Source of the DNA: Sycon ciliatum
Taxonomy: Eukaryota > Porifera > Calcarea > Leucosolenida > Sycettidae
Length of the DNA stretch: 64,000 nt
Direction of reading: 5' to 3'
Assembly: GCF_964019385.1 (NCBI RefSeq)
Contig: NC_088649.1
Span: forward strand, 21,978,435-22,042,434
A program made the position numbers and the translations under genes. This document shows, in pieces, positions 8,844-59,227 of the stretch. The first letter of the stretch is position 1; each line of letters opens with the position of its first letter. The notes under the pieces were generated by a model. It was not told the origin of the DNA, did not search any database, and saw only the letters and a list, made by a program, of their open reading frames with translations.

Positions 8844-11617
8844 CTTCAACACATCTCCCAAGTCCAGGCATTTAGTGACCTCCTAGAGGACTGTCTGTCC
8901 AATATTAGCCTCCCCAATTCGGCGATTGTACTTGCAGGAGACTTGAATGCTCGCCACTCTGACTGGTCTCCTAGTGACACCACGAATCGTGCTGGAAGGG
9001 AGTTCCGTAACTTCTTCTCTTGTTTTGGCCTTGAGCAAATGGTGACATTCCCCACACACTTTACCCCCCACGGCTCAACATCGCGCATTGACGTTGTACT
9101 CACGGATCATCCTCACCTACTACTCTCTGTTACATCTGTTGCTCTTCTTGGTGCATCTGACCACGCACAGATCCTCAGTCATTTCTTCTGCCTACTGATG
9201 CTGTTTACCGTGAGGAACCTGCTGCAAGCGGACATCCCGCTGCTGCACCCCGAAGCCACTTCAGCAATGTTCCTGCAAAGCCGGAATATGACTTTAAATC
9301 CGTGCCATCTTCCGTCTGGGATAGTGTGAATGCAGAGCTCTCTGATATTGACTGGAGCTGGCACCTGCGTGCCAGCAACGTCGATGATGCGCTTTCACAC
9401 TTTTCTTCCATTCTCAACAGTGCCCTTGAGAAGCACCTCTGGCCATTCGGAAAGCAGCCGTATTCTCACCGCTGCCCACGGCCCAGTCAGCCACCCTGGG
9501 TTGAAGCCCATCTCCGCACAGCAATCAAGTGGAAATATGATCTCTATAGCATTTTTAGGAAGTACCCAACACAACAAAACAAACAAGCATACCAACAGCA
9601 GCGAAATATAGTGAAAACCCTGACGCGGACAAAGTACAGAGCTTATATCCGCTCAGTGAAAACTACTTTGCAGGGTAGAGGCCGTCCATCGCTTCACCAG
9701 TTTGTGAGGCAAGCAAGAATTCGAAATGTATCACGGGAAATTCCGTCACTCACAACAGGGACTCAGCAGGCGGCTGACCCTTTGGCCAAAGCTACGGCAT
9801 TAAACGCCCAGTTTGCCTCCGTGACTCGGCCAGATGACCCGTTGCTCTCTATTCCCCCTATTCTCACCCCCTCGGAGCCCTCAGCTTGTTTCACGTCCGT
9901 CATCACCACAACTGCCACTGTCCGGCGTCATCTGAAGAAGCTTCCGACGTGCAAGGCGTCTGGTCCTGACGGCATCCCCAACCGGGTCCTCAAGGCCCTG
10001 GCACCATCCATAGCATTCCCTTTGTGCCATATTTTCAACATGTCATTTACCACGGGCATATTCCCTTCCGCATGGAAAACAGCGAAAGTCATACCTGTAT
10101 TCAAGAAAGGTTCCCGCCACGAACCTGCAAACTACCGCCCTATCTCTCTTCTTCCCTGCGTGTCCAAAGTATGTGAACGCATCTTTTATGACCACTTATA
10201 CAGACATGTTTCGCCGTTTCTGAGTCCCGCACAATCTGGGTTTCGTAAAGGCGACTCCACCTCTCTTCAACTGATCCGCATCGTGCAGCAGGTGTGCCAG
10301 CATAGGGATAACAGAGCGCTTGCTGGCATTTGCTTCTTTGACTTGGCCAAGGCTTTTGATACCGTCTGGCATCGAGGACTTTTGGCAAAGCTCGAGCATG
10401 CAGTCAGGGTACGCAAACAACCACTCTCCTGGCTGAAATCTTATCTCTCTGGGCGTTATCAGTACGTAACTGTGCTTGGCACATCCTCGGCTGCAGAGCC
10501 AGTATTGTCGGGCGTTCCTCAAGGATCAATTCTTGGTCCCCTACTATTTATAATTTACGTAAACGACTTACCTGCAGTCTTCCCTGGAACGTCTCTGTTT
10601 GCTGACGACACGACCCTTCTCACCTCATCAGCTTCCCTCACTGGCCTGAAAAACAACTTGCGTGCTTGCATTCAGGCATTTCTTTCCTGGATGTCGTCCT
10701 GGAGGTTGTCCCCAAATCTATCAAAAACAAAGATCATGCTCTTCCCGCCCCAGCCGGAGTTCACAACCCTCATCCATGCCAGCTTTCCAAATCCAATTGA
10801 CATAGTGTCTTCTCACAAACACCTTGGCATTGTGATTGACTCTGCACTCTCTTGGGTACCTCACATCGAATATACCTGTAAAAAATCAAGTAAATCCTTA
10901 GGAATTCTCTCAACCCACTGCTCCTACCTCCCACTTTCTTGCAAGCTTCTTTTTTTATTTAGCCTACCTTCGCCCAATATTTCATTATGCAGATACGTCT
11001 TGGGTCGGGTTATCCTCTTCCGCTGCTGCAAAGCTTGAAATACATCACAAGAAAATCCTTAAAACTCTCCTCCGTCAACCCCGCATGCTCTCATCATCCG
11101 CCCTTTATAAAATCGCTCACACAACCCCGTTATCACATGGACGCAGAGCACACCTGGCTTCTCATGTCCATTCTTTTAAGCTTCGAGTTGTGCCCACCTC
11201 ATCTCATGTGTTTTAATTGGTTCTCTTCTCTAAGAACTAGAAACTCGCTCTTACTCCCTAAGTGCAACTCATCCACTCTTTTGCGCTCCCCTCTCTTTAT
11301 TGCTTTATCTGTTTGGCTCACCCTACCCAGAGAAAATAAGGACCTGACCTCACTCCGCCTGTTTAAGATCCGTGCCGCCCCTTATTTACTACGACATGCA
11401 TAGCTCATTATCCACATGTCCTTTGCGTCTCTGTGTTTTTCACTGTTTTTATTTGACATTATCTTTCTTTACGTTCGTTTTGCTACTCTTTCTTTTTCCC
11501 TCCCCTTATTTCTATTTATCGCCGTGGTTGGCAATCACCCACACTCGTAATATTGGCCGGTGTTTCCGCCGAGTCTTGAGATGTTGCAATAAATAATAAA
11601 TAATAATAATAATAATC
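8844..11617 (+). pseudogene. APE-type LINE (LINE C), 5'-truncated, two frameshifts
   Basis: This is a degenerate ORF2 of an APE-class non-LTR retrotransposon. The endonuclease C-terminal half is readable at 8844-9190 (LAGDLNARHSDW, then IDVVLTD, then SDH). A frameshift near 9185-9195 moves the frame to 9196-10950. That frame has the linker, the RT fingers (SGPDGIPNRVLK, PANYRPISLLPC), KAFDTV, GVPQGSILGPL and the catalytic LFADD (near 10600). A second shift lies in a T-rich run near 10955-10970, after which the thumb and C terminus continue to 11403. The 3' UTR has AATAAA motifs and ends in an (AAT)n tail at 11589-11617. ORF1 and the endonuclease N terminus are missing, so the copy is dead. 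The clade is CR1/L2/Jockey-like, not resolved further. Confidence 0.88.
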
Positions 11618-18479: not shown

Positions 18480-20410
18480 CTATTCTGTGTTTGTTTTATC
18501 TAATGCATTGCATATCCAAGGACAATCATCCTCAAACGGATAAAATCTAAGATAACCTAAAATAGGTGGTGTAAAGAAAACAGCGAGTATGGAGAACTCT
18601 CGGGATAGGGAACACAGGCGTGATTTGAGCAGCAAACTGACATTGCCGTGAAGAATGCGGTGTACGAGAAGCCGCAACTTGCAATCCTCCCGCTCGACAG
18701 CCGGACAAATGCCGAGTTGGGCATACAGCTTCATAGTGTGGGCACTCGAGGGCTGGGTTGTGATACAGCGGATGCGATGCTTATCCAGTCTGATGAGGGT
18801 CTGTTTGAGGCTTGGTGAGAGGCTGGCGAAGTAGGCATTTGAGGCGTAGAGTAGGTCAAGTAGGATAAGAGCTGTGTAGTAAAGGAGGGACTGCGCACGG
18901 GTGATGTCTGCTCCGATGTGATGCAAGACTCGGAGTTTAAAGGACACCTTCTTCACCACAGCAGCCACTTGAACTGCCCAGCTCAAGCGCTCGCCCAGAC
19001 AAATACCAAGGTTTTTTGCTGTGCTGGTTTGAGCCAGAGGAGTGCAACAACATGTAACTTCAAGCTCTAGTCTGGTCCGCCTTCCGGCGGAGATGCTCAG
19101 AACCTGGGTTTTCTGCGCATTGAGGATTAACCCCTTGTCCCCCAGAAATTTGGATACTGCAATGGAGAGGACATGGTTGATGGTAGCTACATCAGAACTG
19201 CAGGTGTAGATCATGATATCGTCAGCAAACATCAGAAACAGCGCTGGTGACGCACACTGCACTACGCTCCTTGTGTAAAGGGAGAGTACAGGCCCCAAGA
19301 CACTGCCCTGTGGAACACCGCAGGTGCAGATGATCGTATCAGAGACTTCCCCGTCGGCTAAGAATACTCTCTGGTGTCTGCCACTGACGTAGTCAATGAA
19401 CCAATCGAGGGCAACTGAGCCGATACCAATATCAAGGATTTCCTTCACCATCGCTTGGTGGTTAACCATGTCAAAAGCCTTGCCCATGTCCACTAAGACA
19501 AGGCCACAGTGCTGGCTGTGGTCTGTGGCAGTGAGAAGGCTATCGACGGCAACGGTGATGGCGTCCTCCGTAGAGTGGTGAGGACGGAAGGCGAACTGGT
19601 TGTCGGGAAGTAGATGTTTCGCATGGACAAACTGGCAGAGCCGCTTTGAGGACGATCTTCTCCATGATCTTTGACACTACTGGGAGCAGCGAGATCGGCC
19701 TATAGTTCTTTGGGATAGATGGGTCACCGAATTTGAATAGAGGACGTGCATTTGCTAGCTGAAAATAGCTGGGTACTCGCCCCTCAGCCATTGAGGCATT
19801 GATGAGGATGGTTAGAGAAGGAGCTAGAGCACGGGCGCGGTGTTTCAGCATGTTGCACGGAGCTCCGTCACTGCCGGTTGCTTTCAGGTCCTCAATAGCC
19901 TGCAGAAGTTTAAACACCTCTTTACAGGTGGCGGGCTCGAATCGAGTGAGTGACCTTTCCAGGTGTGGACCAGCGGGTGGCACAAGGCAAGCTGGCTGAG
20001 TGGGATCTGTCACAACATCTCCGAATTTCTGACTCAATCTGCCAATAGGTTGCAACGGCGGTGTGTCCTTCTTCTTCTGACCACTAAGGACGTTAATCAT
20101 TTGCCAAGTCTTTCACGGATTCGACCTGCCAGAGTTCAGCAGTTGATAGTAATGGTTGGCCTTCAGCTCTCTCTCTCTCTCATTTCTTTGCGCTCAAGCG
20201 GGCTAGTGAAAACTCCTGATAGAGCTGTTGATCTAATGGACTGATTCTCAACCTGCGATGGGCTCGATCCCGAGAGCGGATAGCGGAGTGATATGCAGGA
20301 ATCTTCCCTGGTGTTGATTTTTGGGGACTAGTCTTGATGTGGCTTTTTCGCACAGGTGTAAACCGATCAAGAGTGAGAAGAAGCCGTTGAAACCACTGCT
20401 CCCACAATCG
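18480..20410 (-). pseudogene. APE-type LINE (LINE D), 5'-truncated, frameshifted RT
   Basis: Reading on the minus strand: a linker piece (20180-20407, W-F-Q-R-L...D-R-F-T-P-V-R), RT fingers (20100-19540: LKATGSDGAPCNML, NYRPISLLPVVSK), a frameshift near 19500-19600, then the palm (19493-18480: GKAFDMV, CGVPQGSVLGPV, LMFADDIMIY) and the thumb. The frame closes early at 18480. The endonuclease and ORF1 are missing. The catalytic F-A-D-D is intact, but the copy cannot be active. The domain sequence resembles LINEs A and B more than LINE C. Confidence 0.85.
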
Positions 20411-22343: not shown

Positions 22344-28374
<6,031 letters not shown>

Positions 28375-28377
<3 letters not shown>

Positions 28378-29093
28378 GGTCCGGCTCATCGCAATTGTCG
28401 CTTATCTATCGCCACTAAGAACAGGAGTTTTATTGCCGCTCTGTTTATTTTCAATAGGCATAGTGAGGAAGCATGATACATGAATACCCTCCGCCACAAG
28501 AAAATATATTCAGCCATGGAATCAGGTGAAGCGAGTCATAGAAGGGAAGCAAGGTAAGCAAAATGCACGAAATCATAGTAAATCAGCGAATAAGCGCGTT
28601 CTTGCACTCACACTCTTACAGGTCCAGAGTTCATTCAACTCCCCATCACTCAAACTGCGGCCGCTACATGAACTGACATAAATTTGCTGGTGTCTAGCTG
28701 CTGGCGTAGACTGGTCACGTGCCTCCGTGGTTGCAGAGCGTCTTACTTGAGGAAGAGAATAGGCCCATCTTTTCTCGACCAATGTCGCCTTCTGTCCATG
28801 TAACCGCCTTCGGCATTCATATGTTGGCCTATTTAACATTGGCATGCTCTGCGGATTTGTAGGCATGCTAGGCAATTTAAATATTATCCTGCAAAGTATT
28901 TTGTAGGTGCTTGACTACTATACTACGTCATGTATTACAATTGGTACATGACTTAATTATAGCCGTTTGGCATGGTACAATAACCGTTTTTGTTTTATTT
29001 TTTATTTTTTAATGGCTTTCTCTTCTTCCTCGGATGGTTTACAATTTGTATCACAATTATTTGTGGGTTCAGCAATAAAGGATGTGACTACTT
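28375..29093. other. Unique spacer, starting with a solo terminal repeat
   Basis: It begins with CTTGGTCCGGCTCATCGCAA...TTGTCGCTTATCT, close to the terminal repeat of the element at 30560-31342, but no inverted partner is found here. The rest is non-coding, including a palindrome-free AT-rich part. Confidence 0.5.
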
Positions 29094-34468
<5,375 letters not shown>

Positions 34469-35105
34469 GTGGCCCATATGCTGTAGTCTTTTGGACGCTG
34501 AGTCGACTGGTTTTGGTTCGAAAATGCTGCTATGCAGCGTTCGGCCCTTATTCCCAATCGAACGTTGTTGAACAAGCGGTTACCTGCTCTTGGGTGCCCG
34601 AATCACCTGGTCACCACGCCAGCAGGCGACAACTTTCACACCAAGGTTCAACTCGAGTTCAACTTGAGTGACAGGACTGCATCCAAAAAAGGCCAAACAG
34701 GCTAGTAAGTTGTACCCTGCAGGCACGGTGACCAGGTGACCGGTGCACGCAAGAGCACGTGACCGCTTGTTCAACTATGTTTGATTGGGAATAGAGGAGG
34801 AACGCTGCATCGCAGCCTTTTTGGACCAAAACCAGTCGACTCAGCGTCGAAAAGACTTCAACATATGGGCCAATCGTGGTCATCCTTGCTTTTATAAGAA
34901 CGAAATGGCGCTTTTAGTGACATTTTGCATACAAATCCCCATCTAGTAGGGCGCAGTCACCCAGTTTCGGTGGAAGTGCGCGAGTTCGATTGGGATTAAA
35001 GTAGGAAGGGAGCATCTCAGCTTCCTCGGACCACGACCATTCGACTCAGCACCCCGAAGACTACAACTGGTGAAATTTTGATTTAAGCCTTAACTTCCCC
35101 TTTAA
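34469..35105. mobile_element. T2/Kolobok-like MITE, second copy, left arm truncated
   Basis: Same element as 7813-8679. The left arm is reduced to about 34473-34594, while the right arm (34756-35101) is complete and ends ACTTCCCCT next to TTAA (35102-35105). The central segment (34595-34755) is inverted relative to the first copy. Confidence 0.75.
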
Positions 35106-36130
35106 CCCTTTGCCGGTCTAACTCAATGTATGTGAGGGGTGGTCACGCAAATACATGTACACACAACCAGCAATAACTCAAGAACCAAGTGTTGTAGGTA
35201 TAGGTAAACCATAATATTTTCAAAATCTGTGTGCCTGAACGCGTCCAGAAAATTCAAATATGACTAGGTCGAGGCAAGGATAGGGCCCATGGTAGCCCTT
35301 CAAGTTGAGAGAAAATACAATTGCGGATGAAATACACGAATATCACAGCACGAAGGGCATACCAAGTTCGTGATGGAGCTGAAGTCGTACGATAAACAAT
35401 CAGGTAAGGGCTACGTCTTTACAAGAAATGTAGGCTCCCTACAATACCGCCGTTGAACACCAACACCTCGCCATCGGCGATACGCCAGCAGCAGCAATTC
35501 CCATTGCACGATTTCGCAGTTTCGGTTTGGTCATCTCAGCGCTGCTCGCGTCAGATTCACTCTCGCTCAGATGAGTACTCAGGCGCGAGCTTACGCATGC
35601 CGTGATTCTCACGGCCAGGCAAATCAGCTGATCGCACCTGACGAGTCCTTGTGACAGTCGCTGTCGCCGTGTCGGCAGCAGGAAGGCTTCCTCTCTGTTT
35701 GGAGAATTTTGTTTCTTCATTCGTGGACGATATATTTTTGAACTAGCAGGACTCAACAGAGCTCTTTTTCTCAACATACTACACTGCAAAACCTCCCGGG
35801 ACATCCAGCCTGGAATGGTGATGTTACTGCTCTCAGAACGCTTGTCAAACACGGCCCCAAGAGATGCACTCGCATTCTTGAAATGCGCGCATGGCGGATG
35901 GTCGTCTTTTCCAATTTCAACAAACTTCAGTCGATCGATACGGCAAAAATTTGTATGGTAAGCATGGTTGGTTTGCACATCGTCAGAAAGCCTTGGAACT
36001 CAGCTACGCGTAGAGCGCCATTTCAGCTGTCTCCTTGCAACAAGACCCCAAAAAAATGAGGGCCAAACGTACCGATACTATAGTATCGGTATAGTATCGG
36101 TACGCTTATGGTAGACCGGTAAAGGGTTAA
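35102..36130. mobile_element. piggyBac-like non-autonomous element, 1,021 bp, TTAA target duplication
   Basis: TTAA (35102-35105) is followed by CCCTTTGCCGGTCT. The right end AGACCGGTAAAGGG (to 36126) is followed by TTAA (36127-36130). TTAA plus CCC...GGG ends are the piggyBac signature. The inside holds a palindromic CCGATACTATAGTATCGG near the right end and a minus-strand open frame of 179 codons (35439-35978) that I do not recognise and that shows no piggyBac transposase motif. Confidence 0.75.
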
Positions 36131-42518: not shown

Positions 42519-43154
42519 ATGGACAGGCCAGCTGTCCATTTCCAGTGTCCAAAGACTGTGAAGCATCTGGACGTAGCAAAGGCAATTCAAGCCTGCAGTC
42601 TCTCGCTTGGAGATGTCCTCCAGATCGACCTGCACGGCCGGCCCGGGTCTTGTGTTCTGACCCTGCGTGATTTCGCCACCAGGGACAAGCTCGTCGCAGC
42701 AAATCTGCAGTTGGAGGGTAAGAGCATTGACGTGCTCCCGGGAGATGGCACAGTATCCGCTACCCGTGTTTACATTTATGGTTGCGAACCCGCATTGCAT
42801 CTGGGCCACATAGAGTCGGCTTTGGGGGAATTTGGCGAAATTGTCGGCAATATTGATTGCGAATTTGTCACCGTTGAGAAATTCAAAATTCTCACGGGGG
42901 TACGGCGGGTGCTAATGATCCTGAAGAAAGGTGTACCCTGCAAGCTAAGCATTCAGAAAAGGTCGTACCGTACACATCACCGCGACCAGATACAGACGTG
43001 CTTTCGCTGTGGTGTATCTGGCCACCAAGCACGTGACTGTCCTGCACGCCCAAATGCTGCACGTACACGTACGAATCACACTTCGTACTCCACTGTCGTA
43101 CAGGGCCAGGCTGCGGACCGTATGGCGCACGGCTGTTTCGCGGCCACCACTTAA
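42519..43154 (+). CDS. CCHC zinc-knuckle protein, LINE ORF1/Gag-like
   Basis: This 211-codon frame starts at an ATG in a good context (G at +4). Residues about 5-150 look like two RRM-like alpha/beta units (VHFQCP..., then TRVYIYGCEP...GEIVGNI...RRVLMIL). At residues 161-174 it has CFRCGVSGHQARDC, a canonical CCHC knuckle. This architecture is typical of the nucleic-acid-binding ORF1 of LINEs and of Gag-like host genes. No ORF2 follows; 367 bp downstream, the convergent RAG1-like gene ends. A solo ORF1 is odd because LINE fragments normally lose their 5' part, so domestication or a chimera is possible. The role is inferred as RNA or single-strand binding. Confidence 0.6.
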   Translation: MDRPAVHFQCPKTVKHLDVAKAIQACSLSLGDVLQIDLHGRPGSCVLTLRDFATRDKLVAANLQLEGKSIDVLPGDGTVSATRVYIYGCEPALHLGHIESALGEFGEIVGNIDCEFVTVEKFKILTGVRRVLMILKKGVPCKLSIQKRSYRTHHRDQIQTCFRCGVSGHQARDCPARPNAARTRTNHTSYSTVVQGQAADRMAHGCFAATT

Positions 43155-43521
43155 CAATATGGCGGCCTTCGCCCAGGTTTACGGTGAAATTCAAAAATAT
43201 TCTGAAAACTGAAAAAGATTTCAAGATCCTGTGGGATTCACGCGAAAACTGTGCTTTGTCAAGGTAACAAACACCGCGATCGGGACAAGGATTCAAACTT
43301 TTGAAGTCGCACAACAAAAAGTGTTCAACTTCGACAACAACAAACAAGGAAAGAAAAGGAAGGAGAAGGTAGACAGTCATGCACAGCAGGTTTTTGCTGG
43401 ACGACGTCTCTTCCTGTTGTCACTACAGAGCTCAAATAGGAGTCAGCAGTACCGTTGTTATTTTTCTTACCTGGATCAGGGCTGAAATGGCCAAGCTGCT
43501 GCTGCGTCCAGGGCCTAAGCA
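43155..43521. other. Intergenic space between convergent ORFs
   Basis: No feature seen; no obvious terminal inverted repeat of the RAG/Transib type (CACWRTG). Confidence 0.5.
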
Positions 43522-46500
43522 TCACTGCTCGAGCTCGGACGCCTTGCGTTTTCTTGATGCCGTGGCGGGACGAACAGCGTCATGTTGTGGCAATGTCCCG
43601 ACGAGATGTTGCTGGCACATTGCTGTGAGGCGCTGCAGAGTCCCAGGAATGGCGTTATAATCGAAACTCAGCCTGTTGAATCTGGCGTGAATTGACTCGC
43701 TGCCCTGCTCGGCGAGTAGACCCAGACCGACTCCAAATTTCCTGGTGAACGGGACTGTGTGCTCCTCCAAGAGATGTAGTTTCGGAGTTATGTTGCCGAG
43801 CTGCCGGGTGATTATGGATTCTCTGCATTTGTGAAGAAACAGCTGGATGCAGTCAGCCAGCTTTGAGATGTCGGCCTCTGACATGCTGTTGCAATGGCTG
43901 AAACGGTGGCTGCAGTCGGCATATCCCGAAAACAATCCATGGTACCGCTGCTGCAAAATTTCTGCATCAGCAACGAGCTGCTGGCAACGAGTGGAAACCA
44001 CCTCAACTGGAGCAGACATCAGTGCTCTTAGTACGGCAGGCTGCAGTGTGCGATGTACATGGTTGCCCACGAAGGCACCGCCATGGTAGGCTTGCCGATC
44101 AACATTGTGTGCTTGGAGCACAGACTCGAGACTTGACGCGCATGGTCCTGTGACTTTCTTGTTCTTTCTCATCTCGTCTAAGTCTTGTACGAGTTTGCTG
44201 TGCTCATCACTTGCAGCAGTGAAGGCGTCGCTGGCGGCTTTCCACAGTTGCTGTATTGCTGCAGCTACAGTGTCCATGTTGACGTTGGGAAAGCTGGTCG
44301 GTGCGTGTTGCTGCAAGAGCACTGCGTATTGGAGCTGCTGCTGTAGTTCATCGCTCTTCGCCTGGGCATCCTCCATAGCTTGCCTGGCGGACCGAACTTT
44401 GTCGCTGAGAACTGTTAGCTCTTGAAACTGGAGCTGATCATCTGCACACGGCTGGAGAGTTGCTGCTGCCAGTTTCACGTCCAGTTGTTTGACTTCAGCT
44501 AGGTAGATGTCATACAGCCATGCGAAAATGCCGAGATCCAGATGTAAAGACGGAATAACAACGTTGCTGACGGGAATTGGCAAGATAACTGGGCGGATGG
44601 CATTGTTGTGGTGCTTGGCTTGCGAAAGATTTGCTCCAGAGGCGATAAAGTTGGCATGATCCACTGCTATTGTCTCCAGTGTTCTGCCCTGATGATCTCC
44701 TGCATCACGCTTGTCTGCCGGGTGCTCCATCTGCTTCTTCGGACAAAGGCAATGGAGACATGGGCGATAGCCACTCGAGCCAGACAAACCATAGCACTTA
44801 GTCTGGTAATCATAGTCACCAAAGAAGAATAGCACAAATGACTTGCCTTTCCACTTGATAGTACTTTGCAGCTCCTTCACCTGGTCTGCATACACTCCAA
44901 GTGCGATCTGGAGGTTGGCAGGGCTGTCTGGGCAGTCAAACACGCACAGAGGAATGGTGTTGTTCAGCGAGTTCGGATGCTTCAGGTTTGCTACCTGGAA
45001 TACAAACTTGAAGGAATGGCCGCCGTGGTCACCGCCAAGCTTTAGCCAAATCTCGGACTCCGGAATGACATTTCCGTGCCAGGTCAGCCACCCATACGTG
45101 TCGTACAAGTCCAGATAGTGCATCACGATGTCAATGAGATTTGGCATGTACACCATGCATGCCATCACTATGCTGCCGTCTTTCTTATTCATTGGCACTT
45201 CCTTTGCTGTGTATTGTGGAACCTGCTGCGCAATGAATGTTCGGGCTGTCTTCTCGGACTCCAGCTGGATGCCGAATCCAGTCAGCCAGCGCTTCAGGTG
45301 CCGCACTCTGTTCCATGGCAGGTTCATATCTGCTTTCAAGGCAAGCAGTGAGCCCTTGGCCGGTGTGCTGTGGCGTATGCCGGCATCTTGCAGCAGCTGA
45401 TCCTGCTCTTGTTTACTGAGCGTTCTAAGTCCAGCAACTTCCTGCGCTCTGGCTCCAGTTGCTCCTCCACAAACAGTGTCTGCGTGCCTCACCAGTTCAG
45501 ACGAGCGGCGTCGCAGTGTGCTAGGAGCTGCCTGATCCGAAGGCACACTACTCACCACAGTGCGCTGATAAACTTGCGGTCTCCCATGTGTGCCTGTTCG
45601 CACCGTCAGCCTGCCGTCGTGTACTTTCGATGCTACTAAGTGATTCGTGAGACGCTCGGCAACATTACCGCACAGTTTAGAAGGCGAGGCAGACAGCACA
45701 TCCTCAACTGTTGAGAGCGGTCGTACTGTGCGGATTGGCGGCGTATCTGTTGCTGGGTTGAAGGAGCAAGTTGCTACGTGCTCCTTGAGACTCCGGAGGG
45801 GTACAACTGCTGGGCAACCTTGCAGTGATTGCATGTGAAAGTCACACCGCACGGACCAGTTGCCGATTATCCTTGCAAGAACTCTGCCTGGCTGCTTGAG
45901 CTCTGACGCTCTCATAGGTGCAGCGCACACTGGACACTGGCTGCTGCTGGCTAGCCATGTGCATATGCAGTCTACGCAGAATAGCTCTTGACAGCATGCT
46001 GCTTCGACTACATTGTCGATAACATTGTTGCATACAGTGCACTTTTCTATAGCATGTTCATCAATAAATCTCTCCTTCGTTAGCTCGGCGCTTGCTTTGT
46101 GCATGCAGCTGGCTATGGCTCGCACACTGTCCACTGATGTATCCAAGCCATTTCTAGATGATGCTCCTGGGACATCTGTTGCACTTGTTGTCTTGTGTGT
46201 TGCGCACGCGTGCCCACTGTGTGCGTCTGCTGCGTCTGGCGCTGCCGCACCTCGTAAATCTGTTTTCTTCTTCTGATGCTTGCCCCTGGTCTTGGCAGTG
46301 TGATTCAAACAAAAATCACAGTGTGTGCGGTGGTGGGGCTGCCATTTCACGGCAGGGCCACAACCACCACCACAGAATTTGGATGTGCCACTTGCTCTTT
46401 TCAGTGTTTTGTCACACAGACTGCATATATACGGAGGATGTATGTTTTGTTTGTCCTGTGACACATTGACATTTAGGACAGACAGGAGAGTGTCAGCGTG

Positions 46501-46596
46501 TTTCTGCACACTGTAGCGGGTTGGCTGCTTACAGGAAGAGAATTTCCTGCCGCCTAAGCGGCACACCTCTTGCAGGTGCTGCGTGTGTTCGTCCAT
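43522..46596 (-). CDS. RAG1-like protein (RAG1/Transib-type DDE recombinase with RAG1 N terminus and RING)
   Basis: This intact single-exon frame of 1,024 codons is close to vertebrate RAG1 in length (about 1,040). The N-terminal zinc region (residues about 12-96) follows RAG1: IHP, C58xxC61, then W85xPH...C93DFC96 and a basic tail. RING: C186xxC189...C202...F206C207xxC210...C221xxC224, with Glu204 where RAG1 has the RING His. Next is a C251/C261/H273/C277 finger. The core has LGGD523HGG, an L-C-x-F-D segment, GDYD596, C613LHC616, LHLDLG (685-689), H941-x4-H946 and EQGSE967S, in the order of RAG1 D600, D708, C727/C730, LHCDIG, H937/H942 and E962. A coiled-coil-like insert fills about 700-810. 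The expected role is DNA cleavage and strand transfer in the nucleus. No RAG2-like kelch gene or RSS-like end was found nearby. Transposon ORF or host gene is unresolved. Confidence 0.8.
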   Translation of the reverse strand: MDEHTQHLQEVCRLGGRKFSSCKQPTRYSVQKHADTLLSVLNVNVSQDKQNIHPPYICSLCDKTLKRASGTSKFCGGGCGPAVKWQPHHRTHCDFCLNHTAKTRGKHQKKKTDLRGAAAPDAADAHSGHACATHKTTSATDVPGASSRNGLDTSVDSVRAIASCMHKASAELTKERFIDEHAIEKCTVCNNVIDNVVEAACCQELFCVDCICTWLASSSQCPVCAAPMRASELKQPGRVLARIIGNWSVRCDFHMQSLQGCPAVVPLRSLKEHVATCSFNPATDTPPIRTVRPLSTVEDVLSASPSKLCGNVAERLTNHLVASKVHDGRLTVRTGTHGRPQVYQRTVVSSVPSDQAAPSTLRRRSSELVRHADTVCGGATGARAQEVAGLRTLSKQEQDQLLQDAGIRHSTPAKGSLLALKADMNLPWNRVRHLKRWLTGFGIQLESEKTARTFIAQQVPQYTAKEVPMNKKDGSIVMACMVYMPNLIDIVMHYLDLYDTYGWLTWHGNVIPESEIWLKLGGDHGGHSFKFVFQVANLKHPNSLNNTIPLCVFDCPDSPANLQIALGVYADQVKELQSTIKWKGKSFVLFFFGDYDYQTKCYGLSGSSGYRPCLHCLCPKKQMEHPADKRDAGDHQGRTLETIAVDHANFIASGANLSQAKHHNNAIRPVILPIPVSNVVIPSLHLDLGIFAWLYDIYLAEVKQLDVKLAAATLQPCADDQLQFQELTVLSDKVRSARQAMEDAQAKSDELQQQLQYAVLLQQHAPTSFPNVNMDTVAAAIQQLWKAASDAFTAASDEHSKLVQDLDEMRKNKKVTGPCASSLESVLQAHNVDRQAYHGGAFVGNHVHRTLQPAVLRALMSAPVEVVSTRCQQLVADAEILQQRYHGLFSGYADCSHRFSHCNSMSEADISKLADCIQLFLHKCRESIITRQLGNITPKLHLLEEHTVPFTRKFGVGLGLLAEQGSESIHARFNRLSFDYNAIPGTLQRLTAMCQQHLVGTLPQHDAVRPATASRKRKASELEQ

Positions 46597-47080
46597 GTGT
46601 GCACAGTGACTACAGTGAGAAGAAAGAAAAATTACAATTTGTTTTGACGCACGGTTTTCGGACTGTGTGCACGGATTCTCATGAGATTTTCTCCATGTAC
46701 TTCGTAGATACTTACCAACGAGAAATTCAACTGAACTAGTTGATCAGTAACCGGGAACAGAGCTAGGAACGCCAGAACTGTTGAGGAAATATGGAACACA
46801 ACGTACAGGAGAGCGAGTGGGAAATGTCCTCGATCGGCAAGGAAAATGAAACGAAGTGGACCGTGTGAGGCATGTACGCGCAGCTGGGACGATACAAAAG
46901 CCAAAAATCGAGACTTCAGTCGAAACCGGAGTGAATGGAGCATGTTCTAAGCGAATCCATTGAGATACGCATCCAATTTCCTCAAGTCAAATCACGAAAA
47001 TCAAGATTTTTTCCCCTTCAGCGACGCCATTTTAGGTGAGCGAAAATCGCGAAAAAAAACAGCCGTGGGCGGATGACAGT
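46597..47080. other. Upstream region of the RAG1-like gene
   Basis: On the minus strand this precedes the RAG1-like ATG. No TATA box is evident within 100 bp. Nothing else is recognised. Confidence 0.4.
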
Positions 47081-47975
47081 CCGGATCAGGGAGTAGTAAA
47101 ATACAGGGAGGTGACACGAGCATGTACGGCCAGTTTGACGATTGCCTTAGCACCGTTTTCACCCGGCGGGTGAGATTGGGGTACTATGGGTACCGAAGTG
47201 TGTAGACACGCGCGCGGATCAGGATTCTCTCGATCAGGGAGTAGTAAAATACCTACCGCCAAAGAGACTCCTACTGCAGCCCGTAGAACCTCAGCGCTGA
47301 GAATTTCCAACAATTGTCTGCCTTCACAAAGTTAGGTAGTCGACCAAACTATCACTATGTCAGGATAAAAGTCCAGCAAGAGTGGTATCACTTTGGGAGA
47401 TATCCCTGCGTGCCGTAGATTTTTCCTGTGTCGGTACAAGCTGTTTATGACGACGTAGCCCCGCATTTCAATCCTTGACAAACTTAGGAATATTTCATTC
47501 CGAAAAGTGAACTCCCGAATCTCTAGCATACCATAATATGAAATGCTCATCATCACAAAGAAGGTAGAGAAGTACTGGTTGATCACAACTGAGGAGAAAT
47601 TAGTGCCGATCGTGTGGTGTCCTAGAGATTTTTTCGACTTCGAAATCGGTGCACTCGCTTTCATCTCCAATCGTACACGTATTGTTCTCAAGGAAATCAC
47701 CTTCGTTCTATTGCTCCATGCCGTCGATCGGGACGAATTTCGGAAGGGTGGTACCTTTCCATATGACGATGACACAGATGTATCACAAGAGCAAAACAAA
47801 TGCTGTTCCATGAGATGGATAGACCTTTTCACGGAATTAGTTCTTCGACAAATACTCAAGATTGATTCAGCAGATCATCTTTTTTGCGAAAGAAAAAAAA
47901 ACAAGCGCGAGGCACCCATCAAAATCACGATTAGTGGCGTGTCACCTCCCTGTATTTTACTACTCCCTGGTCCGG
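47081..47975. repeat. Segment bounded by a 38-bp inverted repeat
   Basis: CCGGATCAGGGAGTAGTAAA... (47081-47118) and its reverse complement (47938-47975) match at 37 of 38 positions. A third partial copy of the core (GATCAGGGAGTAGTAAAATA) lies at 47231-47250. The right arm is inside the ORF1-like frame of LINE A and encodes the start of its 2A-like stretch, so the left arm may be an inverted piece of a LINE 5' end. Confidence 0.7.
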
Positions 47976-48439
47976 ATGTACTCGTTCATGTACAAGAACC
48001 CACTGGCGCTGAACCAAATCCAGGAGCTGTGATAGCAGGCGAAGCAACAGATAGCAACTGCCCATGTCCACCAAAAGGTTCAACCACACTAGAGGGCTCG
48101 AACCAACAACAACAGCAGCAGCAGCAGCACTGCGACAAGCGACCACCAAAGGTCTCTAAGATACCTGTGCGGCAGGCAGCTTATTCTGTACCAGTCGCCA
48201 CGCCAACAACCCTGCCAGCAGAAGAGGCTACACGTGGAGTGCCGGCATTTCCGCTCTCTCGTGGGAAGGGGTGTCACTCTTCACCTGATGACGAAGGATT
48301 CATCCGCGCATCAGGCAAGCACACATTCAGCGCAAGAGTCCTGGCATTCGACCCCCAAGTCGCATGGGCAAATGAGGCATCTGCAAAAGAGATGAACCGC
48401 CTTGCCCAACGTGTGAGGAGTCGGCGAGGAAGCCAATAA
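47543..48439 (+). CDS. LINE A ORF1-like frame with degenerate 2A-like motif
   Basis: An open frame of 298 codons. Its first 130 residues are unlike any family I know and may be fortuitous. From about residue 131 it reads C-I-L-L-L-P-G-P-D...GAEPNPGA, which resembles a 2A ribosome-skipping motif (a leucine-rich lead-in, then D-V/I-E-x-N-P-G-P), but Asp and the final Pro are changed, so skipping is unlikely. Several APE-type LINEs of invertebrates are known to carry 2A sequences near the start of ORF1. A poly-Gln run (CAACAGCAG repeat, about 48110-48128) and a basic C terminus follow. ORF2 starts about 150 bp downstream. Confidence 0.45.
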   Translation: MLIITKKVEKYWLITTEEKLVPIVWCPRDFFDFEIGALAFISNRTRIVLKEITFVLLLHAVDRDEFRKGGTFPYDDDTDVSQEQNKCCSMRWIDLFTELVLRQILKIDSADHLFCERKKNKREAPIKITISGVSPPCILLLPGPDVLVHVQEPTGAEPNPGAVIAGEATDSNCPCPPKGSTTLEGSNQQQQQQQQHCDKRPPKVSKIPVRQAAYSVPVATPTTLPAEEATRGVPAFPLSRGKGCHSSPDDEGFIRASGKHTFSARVLAFDPQVAWANEASAKEMNRLAQRVRSRRGSQ

Positions 48440-51400
48440 CCGGTAAACTTCTGCTTGTAATCTCGATTCTATGCTAGTCCTCGTCATGATTGTTCTTTTT
48501 CTTACTAATTACTACTTTTCACTGCTATATCGTCTTTAAATCAACACGCTCAGGTATTCTCTCCACGAGCTGCCACCATCAGTTTTCCGGTGAGCACCCA
48601 GGATACCCGAACGCTTAAACTAGGTTTTTTGAATGTCTGTAGCTTGCGCTACAAAGTCGATGAAGTAACGGCACTCCTTCAGGTGCAGGACTTTGATATT
48701 TTTGGATTGGCCGAAACCTGGCTGGATAGCACTATTGGTGACGGAGAAGTAGCCATTCCTGGATACAGCCTCACAAGGACCGATCGCAGCGGCAGGCGAG
48801 GTGGCGGCACGTGTATCTATTACAAATCCACCCTGCCAATCAAACCGCGCCCAGATCTAAGCGTAAGCGGCTTAGAGCACAGCATCACCGTGTCGGCTGC
48901 GCCTACAGGCCCCCTGACACATCCGTGGAGTTTTGGACTGATTTAGAAAGTGCCATGCATAGTGCTGGCTCTTCAGCCACGTCTTTAACGGTGTTGGGGG
49001 ATTTCAATGTGGATTTGTCCGCTAATCACCCCAATCATCAGCGAACCCATCTACAGAGCCTGTGCTGCACGTTCGACTTAACCAACTGCGTGGATGCAGT
49101 GACGCGCATCACTCCAAGTACGCCGAAAGGCACCCTTATTGACCTTGTCCTCACGGACAGGAAGATGGTATCCAGCTGCAGGGTGATACCTTGTCTGATC
49201 AGTGATCACAGCGCTGTGCTCGCCAACCTGAACATTTCAGTTCCTCGTGCAGAGACTCAATCGAAGCAGGCCAGGCGGATTCGGAATATAAGTATCCCTG
49301 AGTTCAGAATCGCTCTGGAGCAAGAATTTCAGCATTTCCCTTCCCTTCCACAGTCGTCAAGCGTGGATGATACGTGGCATGATTGGCACTCGCGCTTTAT
49401 GACTGTCCTGGACAGGTATGCTCCGATGAAGACTGTACCACCGCGCCGCAAGCCTCTACCTCCATGGTCCGACCGTGAGACGTATCAACTCATCAGGACA
49501 CGGAATAGGCTGCACACGCGCTGGCTCCGGAACCCCGAAGATATGGCACTTCACAGTGCATTCAAACTGGCTCGGACGCAGGCATCTAACGCGATTCGGC
49601 GCAAACGAAACTCGTATTTTCATCAGACATGTCAATCTGCATCTGCAAACCCTCGTAAGCTCTGGCAGCTCATCAACAGCCTTACAGGCCGTACCCGAGC
49701 ACAACCGGATCATACATGCGACGTTGAAGAGGTCGGCAATACGTTCCATCAAGTTGTGACCGACGCCAATAGACCTCCCATATTGGCAGAACCTCAGGGG
49801 CCATTGAGAGGGGAAGTCCTTTCGGATTTTCGAGGGACTGATGCAGGTTCCGTTTACGAACTGCTCCGTAAAGTCGACGCCAGAAAAGCAACAGGTAGTG
49901 ACGGGGTCCCAGGATCGTTGCTGCTCGCCACTGCCGACATCATCGCACCAAGCCTCACCCAACTTTTCAACATGTCCCTGAAATCGGGTATCGGTCCTCG
50001 AGCCTTCAAGCTAGCAGAGGTTCGCCCCCTCTTCAAATCGGGAGATCCTGCTTCCCCTGGGAATTATAGACCAGTATCTCTACTACCCATTATTTCGAAA
50101 ATCCTCGAGCGGATTGTACAAAACCAGTTACAAGGTCAGCTTTCCCGTGTTCATGCGCTGCCTGACACGCAGTTTGTGTACCGGCATGGCTACTCAACAG
50201 AAGATGCATTGGTTGTCCTGACGGACACGCTCCTGGAGGCCTGCGATCGACGCCAGGTATCGGGAGTGTGCTTTCTCGATCTCTCCAAGGCATTTGACAA
50301 AGTCAGTCATGAGCGTCTCATTCAGGACCTGTTTGCTTTAGGAGTGACAGGTAGACCCCTTCGCTGGCTCATCAGCTACCTCAGTGAGCGGACACAGCGA
50401 GTTTGTTTCGGGGCCAGCAGCAGCACAATCACCTCTTGCAGCTGCGGTGTGTACCAGGGATCGGTGCTCGGCCCGTTGCTCTTTAACGTGTACACAAGAG
50501 ATGTTCCTCAAGTAGCCCAATCCGCAGCCACGATCCAGTTCGCCGATGACGTCGCAGTATATTGTAGCGCTGACACGACTCAGGCTGTTGCCAGTACGCT
50601 CTCCACCGCAGTCTCCTCCTTGGCTGCATGGCTGGAAGAGCGAGGACTGATTCTGAATGAGAAGAAGAGTCAAGTTCTCACAGTCTTTCCTGGTAGAGAC
50701 GCTGGACCCCGGGTCACAGTCCTCTGTCGCAGCCAAGCTCTGCCGACAGTCACCAGCGCGAAGTACCTTGGCGTCATCATTGACGAGGGGCTGAACTTTC
50801 AGCAACACCTGAAAGCCATTACAGCAAAGGTGTCCCGCAAAGTAGGTGCCCTCTGGCGGACTCGGAGATGCTTGAGCCTGGCGGCCCGAGTCACCTACTT
50901 GAAGTCCGTGGTGATGCCGGATCTGACCTACGCATCAAGTTGTTTCGCGTTCTGTCCAACTGCCCAGCAAGCAACGGATCTCCAGACGCTGGAGAACAAA
51001 GCGGTTCGCGCAGTTTTTGGCGCTCGGCCATACGACTCTGCTCAACCTCTGCTCCAACGGGTGGAACTCTACCGAATCTCAGAGCTGCACAAGCAAAAGG
51101 CGCTATTGCTCACCTGGCGATGCATCCACGGCATTGCGGGGAACCGGCTCTGTGGACTGATTTCAAGGTCACCAGATCGGCGTACCCGCTTGCAGAAGGA
51201 CATCGGAGCGCACATACCACCCGCCGCAAGCCGCGCTGGTCAGGCTAGGTTCTCTGTTGCCGCTCCCAAGCTGTGGAACGCACTACCCAGCGACATCCGC
51301 ACCATCCCCCAACGCAGTGTGTTCAAGATGTCAGTCATCCCACATACGCTCGCTCCATGAAACGTATCACCCATTATTCCAATCACTGTTGCTGTCGCAT

Positions 51401-54780: not shown

Positions 54781-55007
54781 ACGTTTATGTCATTCTTTCG
54801 ATGCTTCTTTTGCCTAGGTCATCAGAGACTCCACAGTGTGGTGGGTACGCGTTTTTGAGCTCCAGTTCTTGAAACCTTTTGGACAGCCCAGCCGGCATTA
54901 GGCCGGACTGGAGGTAAGTAGGTATCGTTGTAGCAGTAGTAGTAGTGGCAGCAGTTGCAGTAGTGTAGTTAGCTAGCTAGGTTGTGCACAACGAGAATCT
55001 TTGCGCC

Positions 55008-56330
55008 ATGGGTGAGCTCTCAAGCGCGGAGCAGGTGAAGCTACTTTGTAGCATTCCCGGAATACATCACAACGTGGTCAGCCTTGTAGATACTTTGAAT
55101 GCTTTCGTCCGTGAGGCCAGAAACAACGAAGTACGCCTCCAGCGGAGAGTAGACGAGCTCGCCGGCCTGGTCTTGGATTTAAGGCAAGAAATGAAGTCAT
55201 TGAAGGAGTCCGCCATTATGGCAGTCAAGCAACCATTTTCAAAAAGCGAGCTGGGCAAGGAGATCAAGAGTGCAGGTAGTAGTAGTACTACGAGTAAGAG
55301 TACCCGTACCAGTAGTCCTGGACAGTCAAAGCCACGCGCAAGTGACAGTGCAAAACTGCCAAACCAGCAGGTAAAACACGTGGGAACCCACACTGAACCC
55401 CGTACCCGTAGCGCCGCCACACCCTGGCACGCAACCAAGACAGTGCCCTCTGGGGACACAGAAATGGAGTATTCTGAGTCTGATGCAGGGGATACTGGAC
55501 TCCTGCCTGTCAGTGTCAAGCCCGTTTTCGGTGCTACTGCTGCCAACGCTGGGCCTAACCAGGACACCCTACCGGCCGCTGCAGGTACTGTTGAACCTGA
55601 AACTGGGAACACAGAGCGAGAGGAAGTGGATGCCATAAATGACGACAGCTGGCAGCTGGTCGCTGCAGCCCCACCAAGACGCCGGAGAGCAGTAGTGTTT
55701 GTTGGCAACCTTAGCAGCACCTGCACAATGGAGGGTCTCACGGAGTTTGTGCACCGCCGGTCTGTAGCAGCCACAGGGAACATCATAGATGTCCACTCAT
55801 GCAATGTACACACGGCAGCTAGCGGCAAAGTATCCGCCAGGGTCACCATCGATGCAGCTTGCCTGGCCACTGTGACCTCTGCCAACTTCTGGCCTCGGCC
55901 TCTCTACTGCAGGACATGGAAATTCAATCCACCCAAGAAGAGCAGCGGCAACGACAAGGCCCACAGCAGCAGTGATGGTGGCAGTGGCGACGGCAACGAC
56001 AATGCCCACAGCAGCAGTGACGGTGGCAGTGGCGACGACAGCAGCGGAAACGACTGTGGCAGTGGCGGCAGCAGCAGCAGTGACGGTGGCAGTGGCGATG
56101 GCAACGACAATGCCCACAGCAGCAGAGACGATGGCAGTGGCGACGACAGCAGCAGAAACGACTGTGGCAGGAGCGGCAGCAGCAGCCGCCGCAATAGCAG
56201 CAGCGACAGTTCTCCCAAACCCGGCGCTGAGTTAACTCGGACCCCTGGGCAGAAGTCACGACCCCACCAGCGTGGTTCTCCTGCTGAAGACCAAGCTGCA
56301 AAGCGCGTGGCTCCAGTCAGCAAACAGTGA
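55008..56330 (+). CDS. LINE B ORF1 protein, coiled coil plus RRM-like domain
   Basis: 440 codons. The ATG at 55008 sits in GCGCCATGGG, an ideal Kozak context, and is preferred over the upstream in-frame GTG. Residues about 30-75 form a coiled coil (N-E-V-R-L-Q-R-R-V-D-E-L...), probably for multimerisation. A Ser/Thr-rich linker follows. Residues about 225-300 look like an RRM, with VVFVGNL as RNP2. The C-terminal 130 residues are a low-complexity Ser/Gly/Asp repeat with a period of about 15 (GSGDGNDNAHSSSD) and then a basic tail. This layout fits an RNA-binding ORF1 chaperone of the retrotransposon particle. Confidence 0.8.
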   Translation: MGELSSAEQVKLLCSIPGIHHNVVSLVDTLNAFVREARNNEVRLQRRVDELAGLVLDLRQEMKSLKESAIMAVKQPFSKSELGKEIKSAGSSSTTSKSTRTSSPGQSKPRASDSAKLPNQQVKHVGTHTEPRTRSAATPWHATKTVPSGDTEMEYSESDAGDTGLLPVSVKPVFGATAANAGPNQDTLPAAAGTVEPETGNTEREEVDAINDDSWQLVAAAPPRRRRAVVFVGNLSSTCTMEGLTEFVHRRSVAATGNIIDVHSCNVHTAASGKVSARVTIDAACLATVTSANFWPRPLYCRTWKFNPPKKSSGNDKAHSSSDGGSGDGNDNAHSSSDGGSGDDSSGNDCGSGGSSSSDGGSGDGNDNAHSSRDDGSGDDSSRNDCGRSGSSSRRNSSSDSSPKPGAELTRTPGQKSRPHQRGSPAEDQAAKRVAPVSKQ

Positions 56331-56332
56331 TG
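56328..56332 (+). promoter_or_regulatory. TGATG stop-start overlap of LINE B ORF1 and ORF2
   Basis: The ORF1 stop TGA (56328-56330) shares its A with the ORF2 ATG (56330-56332). This arrangement permits termination-coupled reinitiation, as shown for the ORF1/ORF2 junction of some insect LINEs such as SART1. Confidence 0.6.
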
Positions 56333-59227
56333 CCTTCTGCCAGCCATATACCCCTGCTAAACCCCAATGCTACTCCCTTCCAGCCTCGAAGGTCCCGGGG
56401 CTCCCAAAGAACAACCAACTGCAACAACCTCAAACTGTTCGTCACGAGCCTCAACATCGGGTTTTTGAATATCTGCAGCCTGCGCTACAAGCTGCATGCA
56501 CTGGACAGCCTTGCCCACCAGCACAACTGGGACGTCGTTGGCGTTGCTGAGACCTGGCTGGATAGTACAATCTCGGATGGCGAAATTTGTATTCCCGGCT
56601 ACAGTGTTGTTCGCTGTGACCGGCCCGATCGCCAGGGTGGGGGCACATGCCTCTATTACAAGACATCACTCCCAGTTACCTATCGTTCTGATCTGCACAA
56701 TAGCCACCTGGAGGCTTCCTGGATAGCTATTGGCGGAGGGCAACACCAGCACCTCGTTGGCTGCCTCTATCGCCCACCAAATGCAACTGCTGATTTCTGG
56801 GGCCACCTGGACACAGTCCTCCACAATGCTGCCACGATCACGCCATCAATGACACTGGTGGGTGACTTTAATATCAATCTGGCTCAATGCATGAGCAGTC
56901 GTCCTCACCAGCGCTTCTGGGACCTTATCGGATCGTATGGGCTCCGCAACTATGTTCAGTCTGCCACACGAGTCACACCCCGATGTCCGGATGGAACGCT
57001 GCTTGATTTAGTGCTCTCCACCGTGGGTACTATAAGTCATTGTGAAGTTGTACCCTGCACGATCAGCGATCACTTCCTTGTGCATGCAAGTCTGTCTCTA
57101 CCCTCCTCGCAACACCAACTGCAGCGGAAATCAGTGCGCCCCACCCGCAAGATCCGTGCCATTAACGTTGCAACATTTCGTGAAGATATTGCCTCGTGCA
57201 GCCTCCACTCCTTTCCCCCTGCTGCAACTGTAGACGAGATGTGGAATGGCTGGCATGCCAAGTTTATGTCGGTTCTCGAAAGTCACGCTCCCCTGTGTGA
57301 AGTCAGAATCTCCACCAGGAGGACTCCCCCGCCATGGTCCGACCGTGATCTATTCCAACTGAACATGCGCAAGAATATACTTCACCGAAAGTGGCTACGA
57401 GATAAGACTAACGTGCATCTACATGAGGAGTACAAGCGAGCCCGTGCAGAAGCCTCAAATGCTTACCGGCGAAAACGCAATCAGCATTTCCAACAGCAGT
57501 GTCGTGATCACTCCTCCAACCTGCGGAAGATGTGGTCCGTGATCAACTCTGTCACTAGCCGTTCTCGTCAACATCATCAGCCAACGTGCGACATCACAGA
57601 AGTCTCGGATGCCTTCCACAGCATTGTACATGATCCGTCCCGTCCGGCGCAGCTCCAGATTCCCATTGGTCCACAGCCGCAAGGCTCAATGCTGACCTTC
57701 CAGTCAACCACCCCAGATGAGGTCAAGCACCTCCTGGAACGGATAAATCCTTGCAAAGCCACAGGCAGTGATGGGATTCCTGGGTGTCTGCTACGTGCTT
57801 GCGCTGACCTGTTGGCTCCATCGCTTTCAGTGCTCTTCAGCTCATCGCTGAGGCATGGTGAAGTCCCTCTGGCTTTCAAACATGCTGTAATAAGCCCTCT
57901 CTTCAAAGCTGGCGATCCATCGGTAGCTGCAAATTATCGTCCTGTGTCGCTCCTGCCGATCGTATCCAAACTACTCGAGAAGATAGTCCAGAAGCAACTT
58001 GTTGCACATCTGGAGCGATCATGTGCCATACCACCGACTCAGTTTGCCTTCCGCCGTGAGCACTCCACAGAGGACGCCCTAGTTGTAGCAACAGATGCCA
58101 TCTTAAAGGCCCGGGACGATAAGTTGACCACAGGCGTCTGCCTAATCGACATGTCAAAAGCCTTTGACAAGGTCAATCACAGCCAACTGGTCCGGGACCT
58201 ATTCGATCTCGGCCTGGACAATGCCTCCCTTCGCTGGTTCTGCAGCTACTTAAGCGATCGAACCCAGCAAGTGCGCATTGGCCCCACCTACAGTGTTGCT
58301 GCTAAGTGCTCATCTGGTGTACCTCAGGGCTCGGTCCTAGGACCGATCCTGTTTAGCATGTACACCCGTGATGTCCCTGCCATAGCCCATCCTGCTCCAT
58401 CTCTGCAATTTGCCGATGACATTGCAGTGCACTGCCACAGAAAATCAGTGCTAGCCACATCAGCCTGCCTGTCAGGGGCCGTCACCAACGTCGCTGACTG
58501 GCTCAAGCATCGACATCTGCTACTAAATGACGAGAAGAGCCAGGTCCTGTCAATTGTACCACAACGCAATGCGGGTCAGCATGTCGCTGTCCGCTGCAAC
58601 CAGACAGAGCTTCCCCTGAGCCCAACAGCAAGGTACCTCGGCGTGACCCTTGACGCCGCTGTGAAGTGGGACCCCCATGTTGACGCGATGGCGAAGAAAG
58701 TTGTGCAGAAGATTGGAGCATTGTGGCGGTCCCGCAGATGTCTGAGCCTCAGTAGTCGCATCCAGTATGTGAGGTCAGTCATCATGCCTGACCTCCTATA
58801 TGGGTCTAACGCCTTCTCTTCCTCCCTCAAGGTTTCGCAGCTTGATCGCCTTCAGGTCCTGCAGAACCGAGCGGCGAGAGCGGTATACGGTTTGCCGCCT
58901 CACACCTCGGCTCAGCCTCTGCTCGAACGGATGTCCTTGTACAGAGTTCGGGAGTGCTACGCCCAGAAGCGGCTCGTCCTGGTGTGGCGCTGTGTCAATG
59001 GGAAAGCCAGCAGTGTCCTCCAGGACCTATTCTCACCATCAGCTGGCAGCACCACCCGGCACCAGGTTTCCAGGGGCCTCACTGTCCCCTCGGCACAGTC
59101 AGAAGCCGGCAGATCTCGCCTGGCCTTTCAGGCAGCCTTGGCCTGGAACGCTCTCCCAAGGAGTGTAAGGGAGATCAAGGCTGCCCAGCAATTTAAGCTT
59201 GCCTCCATCCCCTACACCTTGCAATGA
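56330..59227 (+). CDS. LINE B ORF2, APE endonuclease-reverse transcriptase
   Basis: 965 codons from the ATG at 56330, whose A is the last base of the ORF1 stop (TGATG). The endonuclease (about residues 40-260) has LNIGFLNICSLRYK, VAETWLD, GGGTCLYYK, VGCLYRPPN, LVGDFNINL, LLDLVLS and ISDHFLVH, covering the usual APE catalytic blocks. RT (about 480-760) has TGSDGIPGCLLR, NYRPVSLLPIVSK, DMSKAFDKVNH, SGVPQGSVLGPI (about 661) and LQFADDIAVH (catalytic Asp pair at about 693). The thumb with SVIMPDLLYGS and the closing WNALP are present. No stop or frameshift is seen. It would nick target DNA and prime reverse transcription of its own RNA there. The clade is CR1/L2-Jockey-like. Confidence 0.92.
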   Translation: MPSASHIPLLNPNATPFQPRRSRGSQRTTNCNNLKLFVTSLNIGFLNICSLRYKLHALDSLAHQHNWDVVGVAETWLDSTISDGEICIPGYSVVRCDRPDRQGGGTCLYYKTSLPVTYRSDLHNSHLEASWIAIGGGQHQHLVGCLYRPPNATADFWGHLDTVLHNAATITPSMTLVGDFNINLAQCMSSRPHQRFWDLIGSYGLRNYVQSATRVTPRCPDGTLLDLVLSTVGTISHCEVVPCTISDHFLVHASLSLPSSQHQLQRKSVRPTRKIRAINVATFREDIASCSLHSFPPAATVDEMWNGWHAKFMSVLESHAPLCEVRISTRRTPPPWSDRDLFQLNMRKNILHRKWLRDKTNVHLHEEYKRARAEASNAYRRKRNQHFQQQCRDHSSNLRKMWSVINSVTSRSRQHHQPTCDITEVSDAFHSIVHDPSRPAQLQIPIGPQPQGSMLTFQSTTPDEVKHLLERINPCKATGSDGIPGCLLRACADLLAPSLSVLFSSSLRHGEVPLAFKHAVISPLFKAGDPSVAANYRPVSLLPIVSKLLEKIVQKQLVAHLERSCAIPPTQFAFRREHSTEDALVVATDAILKARDDKLTTGVCLIDMSKAFDKVNHSQLVRDLFDLGLDNASLRWFCSYLSDRTQQVRIGPTYSVAAKCSSGVPQGSVLGPILFSMYTRDVPAIAHPAPSLQFADDIAVHCHRKSVLATSACLSGAVTNVADWLKHRHLLLNDEKSQVLSIVPQRNAGQHVAVRCNQTELPLSPTARYLGVTLDAAVKWDPHVDAMAKKVVQKIGALWRSRRCLSLSSRIQYVRSVIMPDLLYGSNAFSSSLKVSQLDRLQVLQNRAARAVYGLPPHTSAQPLLERMSLYRVRECYAQKRLVLVWRCVNGKASSVLQDLFSPSAGSTTRHQVSRGLTVPSAQSEAGRSRLAFQAALAWNALPRSVREIKAAQQFKLASIPYTLQ

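Follow-up and report, generated by a model that had tools for sequence, protein, structure and literature searches.

Which family of recombinases is encoded where a single long open reading frame (ORF) of the calcareous sponge Sycon ciliatum carries the layout of RAG1? The window, i.e., the whole stretch analysed, comprises 64,000 bp (assembly GCF_964019385.1, contig NC_088649.1, 21,978,435 to 22,042,434, forward strand), and all positions below refer to it. A preliminary description presented the ORF as a RAG1-like recombinase. The whole RAG1 layout and the predicted core fold stand, but the family is that of Chapaev (Pfam PF06918), not of RAG1 (PF12940). The ORF is read here, at a probability of about 0.93, as the transposase gene of a 3,940-bp Chapaev (CMC/CMCT) DNA transposon that is autonomous and apparently intact. 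The gene and its parts are as follows (aa, amino acids).

43522..46596, minus strand: transposase ORF, 1,024 aa plus stop
46255..46596, minus strand: N-terminal zinc ('Chapa'/RAG1_imp_bd) domain, aa 1-114 (PF12560)
45742..46059, minus strand: RING and following zinc finger, aa 180-285, like the RAG1 dimerisation domain
43558..45372, minus strand: DDE core, aa 409-1013, predicted to have the RAG1/Transib fold (PF06918 on aa 420-578)
45028..45030, minus strand: D523, putative first catalytic Asp
44815..44817, minus strand: D594, putative second catalytic Asp
44749..44760, minus strand: C613LHC616, C(2)C zinc half-site (22/22 alignment rows)
44155..44445, minus strand: insertion of long, coiled-coil-like helices, aa 718-814 (helices predicted at 722-764 and 774-810)
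43759..43776, minus strand: H941-x4-H946, H(4)H zinc half-site (19/22 rows), aligned with RAG1 H-x4-H
43696..43698, minus strand: E967, putative catalytic Glu (19/22 rows)

The full-length, uninterrupted frame of 1,024 codons that had been described is borne out: it runs from ATG to stop on the minus strand and is open from stop to stop over 1,073 codons, and plus-strand frame 1 across the same interval has many stops. Since the whole protein has 21 relatives at 35-59% identity (scored among the 7,998 candidates with most shared words), the ORF is beyond chance. One relative, P0017, is named Sycon ciliatum (49% identity over 67% of the query), and three EukProt relatives with 'scpid' names are presumably also from Sycon. 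A second homology search (alignment A2; best 8,000 candidates) gave nine matches, three of them new.

Family models place the core outside RAG1. PF06918 (DUF1280) matches aa 420-578 (E 6.2e-13; 49.3 bits, cut-off 25) and PF12560 (RAG1_imp_bd) matches aa 4-114 (E 6.5e-08; 32.9 bits, cut-off 23.3); RING models at aa 185-224 are significant, yet under their Pfam cut-offs. The RAG1 core model PF12940 has no match up to E 10, whereas two vertebrate RAG1 controls give E=0. The profile search that had been proposed as a check recovered the RAG1 N-terminal zinc domain, with PF06918 in place of the RAG1 core. Among the 21 relatives, PF06918 is found on all 21, PF12560 on 10 and PF12940 on none. A search with RAG1 as query gives the converse: it matched 239 rows, and of the 120 listed 119 have PF12940 and none has PF06918. 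Majorek et al. (2014, PMC3985635) equate DUF1280 with the Chapaev transposases and place it in one clade with RAG1. These results speak against membership in the RAG family proper, in which the protein would be the RAG1L of a RAG transposon of ProtoRAG/TransibSU type.

The listed RAG1 motifs are all present: IHP, C58xxC61, W85-x-PH, C93DFC96 and a RING starting at C186 in the N half, and GGD523, GDYD594-596, C613LHC616, LHLDLG, H941-x4-H946 and E967 within EQGSES in the core. The catalytic role given to D596 does not hold. In an alignment of 22 rows (P0001, the transposase, and its 21 relatives) D523, D594, C613 and C616 are invariant; H941, H946 and E967 are the same in 19 rows and the other three are gapped there. 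Position 596 is E in 16 rows and D in 6, so that D594, invariant in 22/22, is the better candidate for the second catalytic Asp. With D594 the spacing to C613 is 19 residues, identical to D716-C735 in vertebrate RAG1 P0026 and thus closer to RAG1 than the 17 versus 19 counted earlier from D596; the H946-E967 spacing stands at 21, against 20 in P0026 (H950-E970). D523 is probably the first catalytic Asp, 71 residues before the second, compared with 108 in P0026 if D608 is its first Asp. E967 aligns with RAG1 E962 and would be the catalytic Glu, on C-terminal alignments that are weak. D594 and E967 enclose both C613/C616 and H941/H946, the DDE arrangement with C(2)C and H(4)H known from Chapaev. 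EnSpm, Mirage, Chapaev and Transib have been grouped with RAG1 by C(2)C and H(3-4)H motifs (2025, PMC12730594).

Like vertebrate RAG1, the sponge protein has the N-terminal zinc domain, the RING with zinc finger, a DDE core with C(2)C and H(4)H, and a predicted core fold; it differs in having no PF12940, no RAG2 and transposon ends. The N half matches RAG1 strongly: to aa 101-377 of 9jpu in a profile search of PDB chains (E 4.8e-24), and in hhalign with E 2.2e-26 (25% identity, 246 columns). The full-length profile alignment is collinear with RAG1 from aa 1 into the core, up to aa 705. The core, aa 409-1013 against 459-1007 in RAG1, has by prediction the RAG1/Transib fold, with 15% identity in the structural alignment (the comparison aligned 988 PDB chains out of the top 1,000 in a Foldseek ranking). 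It includes a long-helix stretch, aa 718-814, between C(2)C and H(4)H that is absent from RAG1; its separate matches are generic long-helix proteins, not RAG1, and the predicted helices possibly serve in dimerisation. At the C-terminus the profile-to-PDB match is only 2.0 bits, to chain 6oem, which has Q in the E962 column, as would fit the E962Q variant that other entries name.

The second line of evidence comes from the element ends, with terminal inverted repeats (TIRs) and a target site duplication (TSD).

43128..47067, minus strand: Chapaev-type DNA transposon, 3,940 bp, one gene; TIRs starting CAC, 4-bp TSD; its removal restores the host frame
43124..43127: TSD GGCG, left copy
47068..47071: TSD GGCG, right copy
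43128..43138, plus strand: TIR CACGGCTGTTT, on the side of the gene's 3' end
47057..47067, minus strand: TIR reading CACGGCTGTTT on the minus strand, on the side of the gene's 5' end

Chapaev hallmarks are CAC..GTG termini and duplications of 3-4 bp (PMC4079192). The termini of the sponge element, CACGGCTGTTT and AAACAGCCGTG, are exact 11-bp inverted repeats of this form, and GGCG stands on both sides of its one copy. In the flanks tested, no other exact 11-bp pair is accompanied by a 4-bp duplication; across 2,000 Markov-resampled flank pairs four such pairs arose in total, CAC not being required. Target duplications of RAG and Transib are 5 bp long (PMC4411706; PMC8355894), and the pair found has 4 bp. 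Among 5-bp candidates of a looser TIR/TSD scan only CAAGGAAAG (11/16) starts with CA, and none is distinct from shuffles. The element also leaves no room for a RAG2L gene: 865 bp lie outside the coding sequence, and its other stop-to-stop frames reach at most 111 codons. Kelch/RAG2 models gave no match on the 21 examined of the 45 window ORFs of at least 150 aa. On family models, TSD length and absence of RAG2, RAG1L membership is rejected as very improbable.

Two other inverted repeats are discarded as element ends: TCCCGGTTA/TAACCGGGA (42156/46756), by eye without flanking TSD, and a 39-bp repeat at 47080/47976, which is part of a separate hAT-like element. Rfam and tRNA scans found nothing.

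The insertion site is an ORF with a CCHC knuckle upstream of the reverse transcriptase (RT) ORF at 48811-51360, and is read as ORF1 of a long interspersed nuclear element (LINE).

42519..43127, plus strand: host LINE ORF1, 5' part with CCHC knuckle (PF00098, E 7.1e-07), interrupted by the transposon
47977..48439, plus strand: host LINE ORF1, 3' part, by frame restoration
47087..47969: hAT-like short element, 883 bp, within the same LINE ORF1; 32-bp TIR, 8-bp TSD

The hAT-like element, at a distance of 19 bp from the Chapaev insertion, has a 32-bp TIR (CAGGGAGTAG...) and a perfect 8-bp TSD, GTCCGGAT, at 47079-47086 and 47970-47977. Excision of the Chapaev element with one GGCG, together with this neighbour, yields a single frame of 361 aa; the frame stops at 211 without removal and at 236 if the Chapaev element alone is removed. 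The element ends gain independent support from this restoration of the host frame. A tblastn search of the window with the restored ORF1 found its own two parts only, and no related intact copy confirming the junction.

Several observations weigh against the assignment to an intact Chapaev element. The exact-match TIR count is post hoc, the pair being known beforehand. The TIR is short, and past its 11 exact bp the two copies differ in the length of a T run. The looser scan found 22 candidate pairs where 20 shuffles had 4-18 each, and its best score, 11/16, is no better than those of shuffles (up to 13). Joins shifted by multiples of three stay open as well, which fixes the frame and not the exact base. 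Only one copy of the element was found within the 64-kb window. The core profile alone does not align significantly with the RAG1 core in hhalign (E 0.24, probability 0.2%); alignment is confined to its C-terminal part, where H941, H946 and E967 fall in register with RAG1 H, H and E962. The structure model has a predicted template modelling score (pTM) of 0.57, and relative domain placement is uncertain.

The intact ORF, and relatives in transcript-derived collections (eukprot entries P0008, P0020 and P0021), would also suit a gene of transposon origin that the host has domesticated for a function of its own. The inverted repeats and TSD are retained, however, and the gene lies within a putative LINE ORF1 in DNA rich in transposable elements. 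With transposon ends present, domestication is rejected and hardly to be expected.

Taken as a mobile Chapaev, the element would work as follows. The transposase may dimerise via its RING region, perhaps also via the long-helix insertion, and would bind its own inverted repeats. These would be cut by D523/D594/E967 with two metal ions in the manner of RAG1 and Transib, and the element would be inserted with a 4-bp stagger, by cut-and-paste and without RAG2. Homology is the only ground for two further plausible features: hairpins formed on the flanks as an intermediate, and a RING that acts as an E3 ligase.

How the two-part layout arose is a separate matter. Mean identity within nine Chapaevs is 43.8% for the core and 34.3% for the N half, the core being higher in 35/36 pairs; within 16 RAG1s it is 80.8% and 48.4% (120 of 120 pairs). 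Between the families the order is inverted, the N half aligning at E 2.2e-26 and 25% identity, the core at E 0.24 and, structurally, 15%. This inversion may reflect N-half exchange, or only saturation and poor sampling. Exchange would mean that the two parts were not inherited together, and that the N half passed between RAG1 and Chapaev lineages after the cores had split, through capture or recombination, along the lines of the N-RAG-TP hypothesis. Few and similar sequences were compared (effective number of core sequences about 3.0 and 1.6), saturated zinc-ligand domains retain a higher identity floor, and the full-length alignment is collinear up to aa 705. Kapitonov and Koonin favour an ancestral fusion with loss in Transib. 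Exchange is on balance unlikely, though worth weighing. Somewhat more doubtful still is its specific form, in which Chapaev-like and Transib-like transposons swapped the N half of RAG1 once their cores had diverged. The V(D)J recombinase would then be a chimera, its closest surviving N-half source a Chapaev like this one, and sponge elements would keep the source architecture complete and mobile.

RING-bearing Chapaev subgroups (CMC/CMCT; PF06918/DUF1280) share with the sponge element the core family, CAC..GTG termini, 4-bp TSD and a Chapa domain followed by a RING; the present element differs in coming from a sponge. No sponge Chapaev of this kind is named in the literature searched, as judged from listings and with subscription journals and Repbase outside its coverage, and the tree legend of Kapitonov and Koonin (2015) has no sponge among the species named. 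RAGL transposons (ProtoRAG, TransibSU) and Transib differ by a 5-bp TSD, RAGL transposons also by a RAG2L gene, and Transib, as the papers describe it, by having no N half. N-RAG-TP of Aplysia likewise has RAG1 N-terminal-like sequence in an invertebrate transposon, but it is described as entirely N-terminal-like, and by that description is set apart (as cited in PMC8355894).

The remainder of the window holds further repeats. A Gypsy-like pol ORF of 1,407 aa (2181-6404, minus strand) matches RT, RNase H and integrase models. LINE-type RT ORFs lie at 9302-11038, 18480-19493, 48811-51360 and 54984-59227, one of them with an endonuclease and an upstream ORF. A palindromic repeat of about 875 bp at 7809-8683 recurs at 34470-35106. 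Within 22344-31469 there are several long (CTA)n triplet arrays, of which the longest spans about 1,670 bp, and 22344-24399 is directly duplicated at 25284-27339 (2,056 bp, 99.8% identity). Arrays and duplication could be real or a matter of assembly.

The novelty claimed for a full RAG1 layout in an invertebrate falls away: the layout in Chapaev and its meaning are already published, and the element is a fresh example of a known family that leaves the published picture unchanged. The RAG1-like fold predicted for its core adds structural support to a link argued in the papers from sequence. As a Chapaev of an early-branching animal that appears complete and intact and has the RAG1 layout in full, it is a test object for whether the Chapa-RING-core arrangement predates the RAG transposon, and for the role of the RAG1 N half in a mobile element without RAG2.
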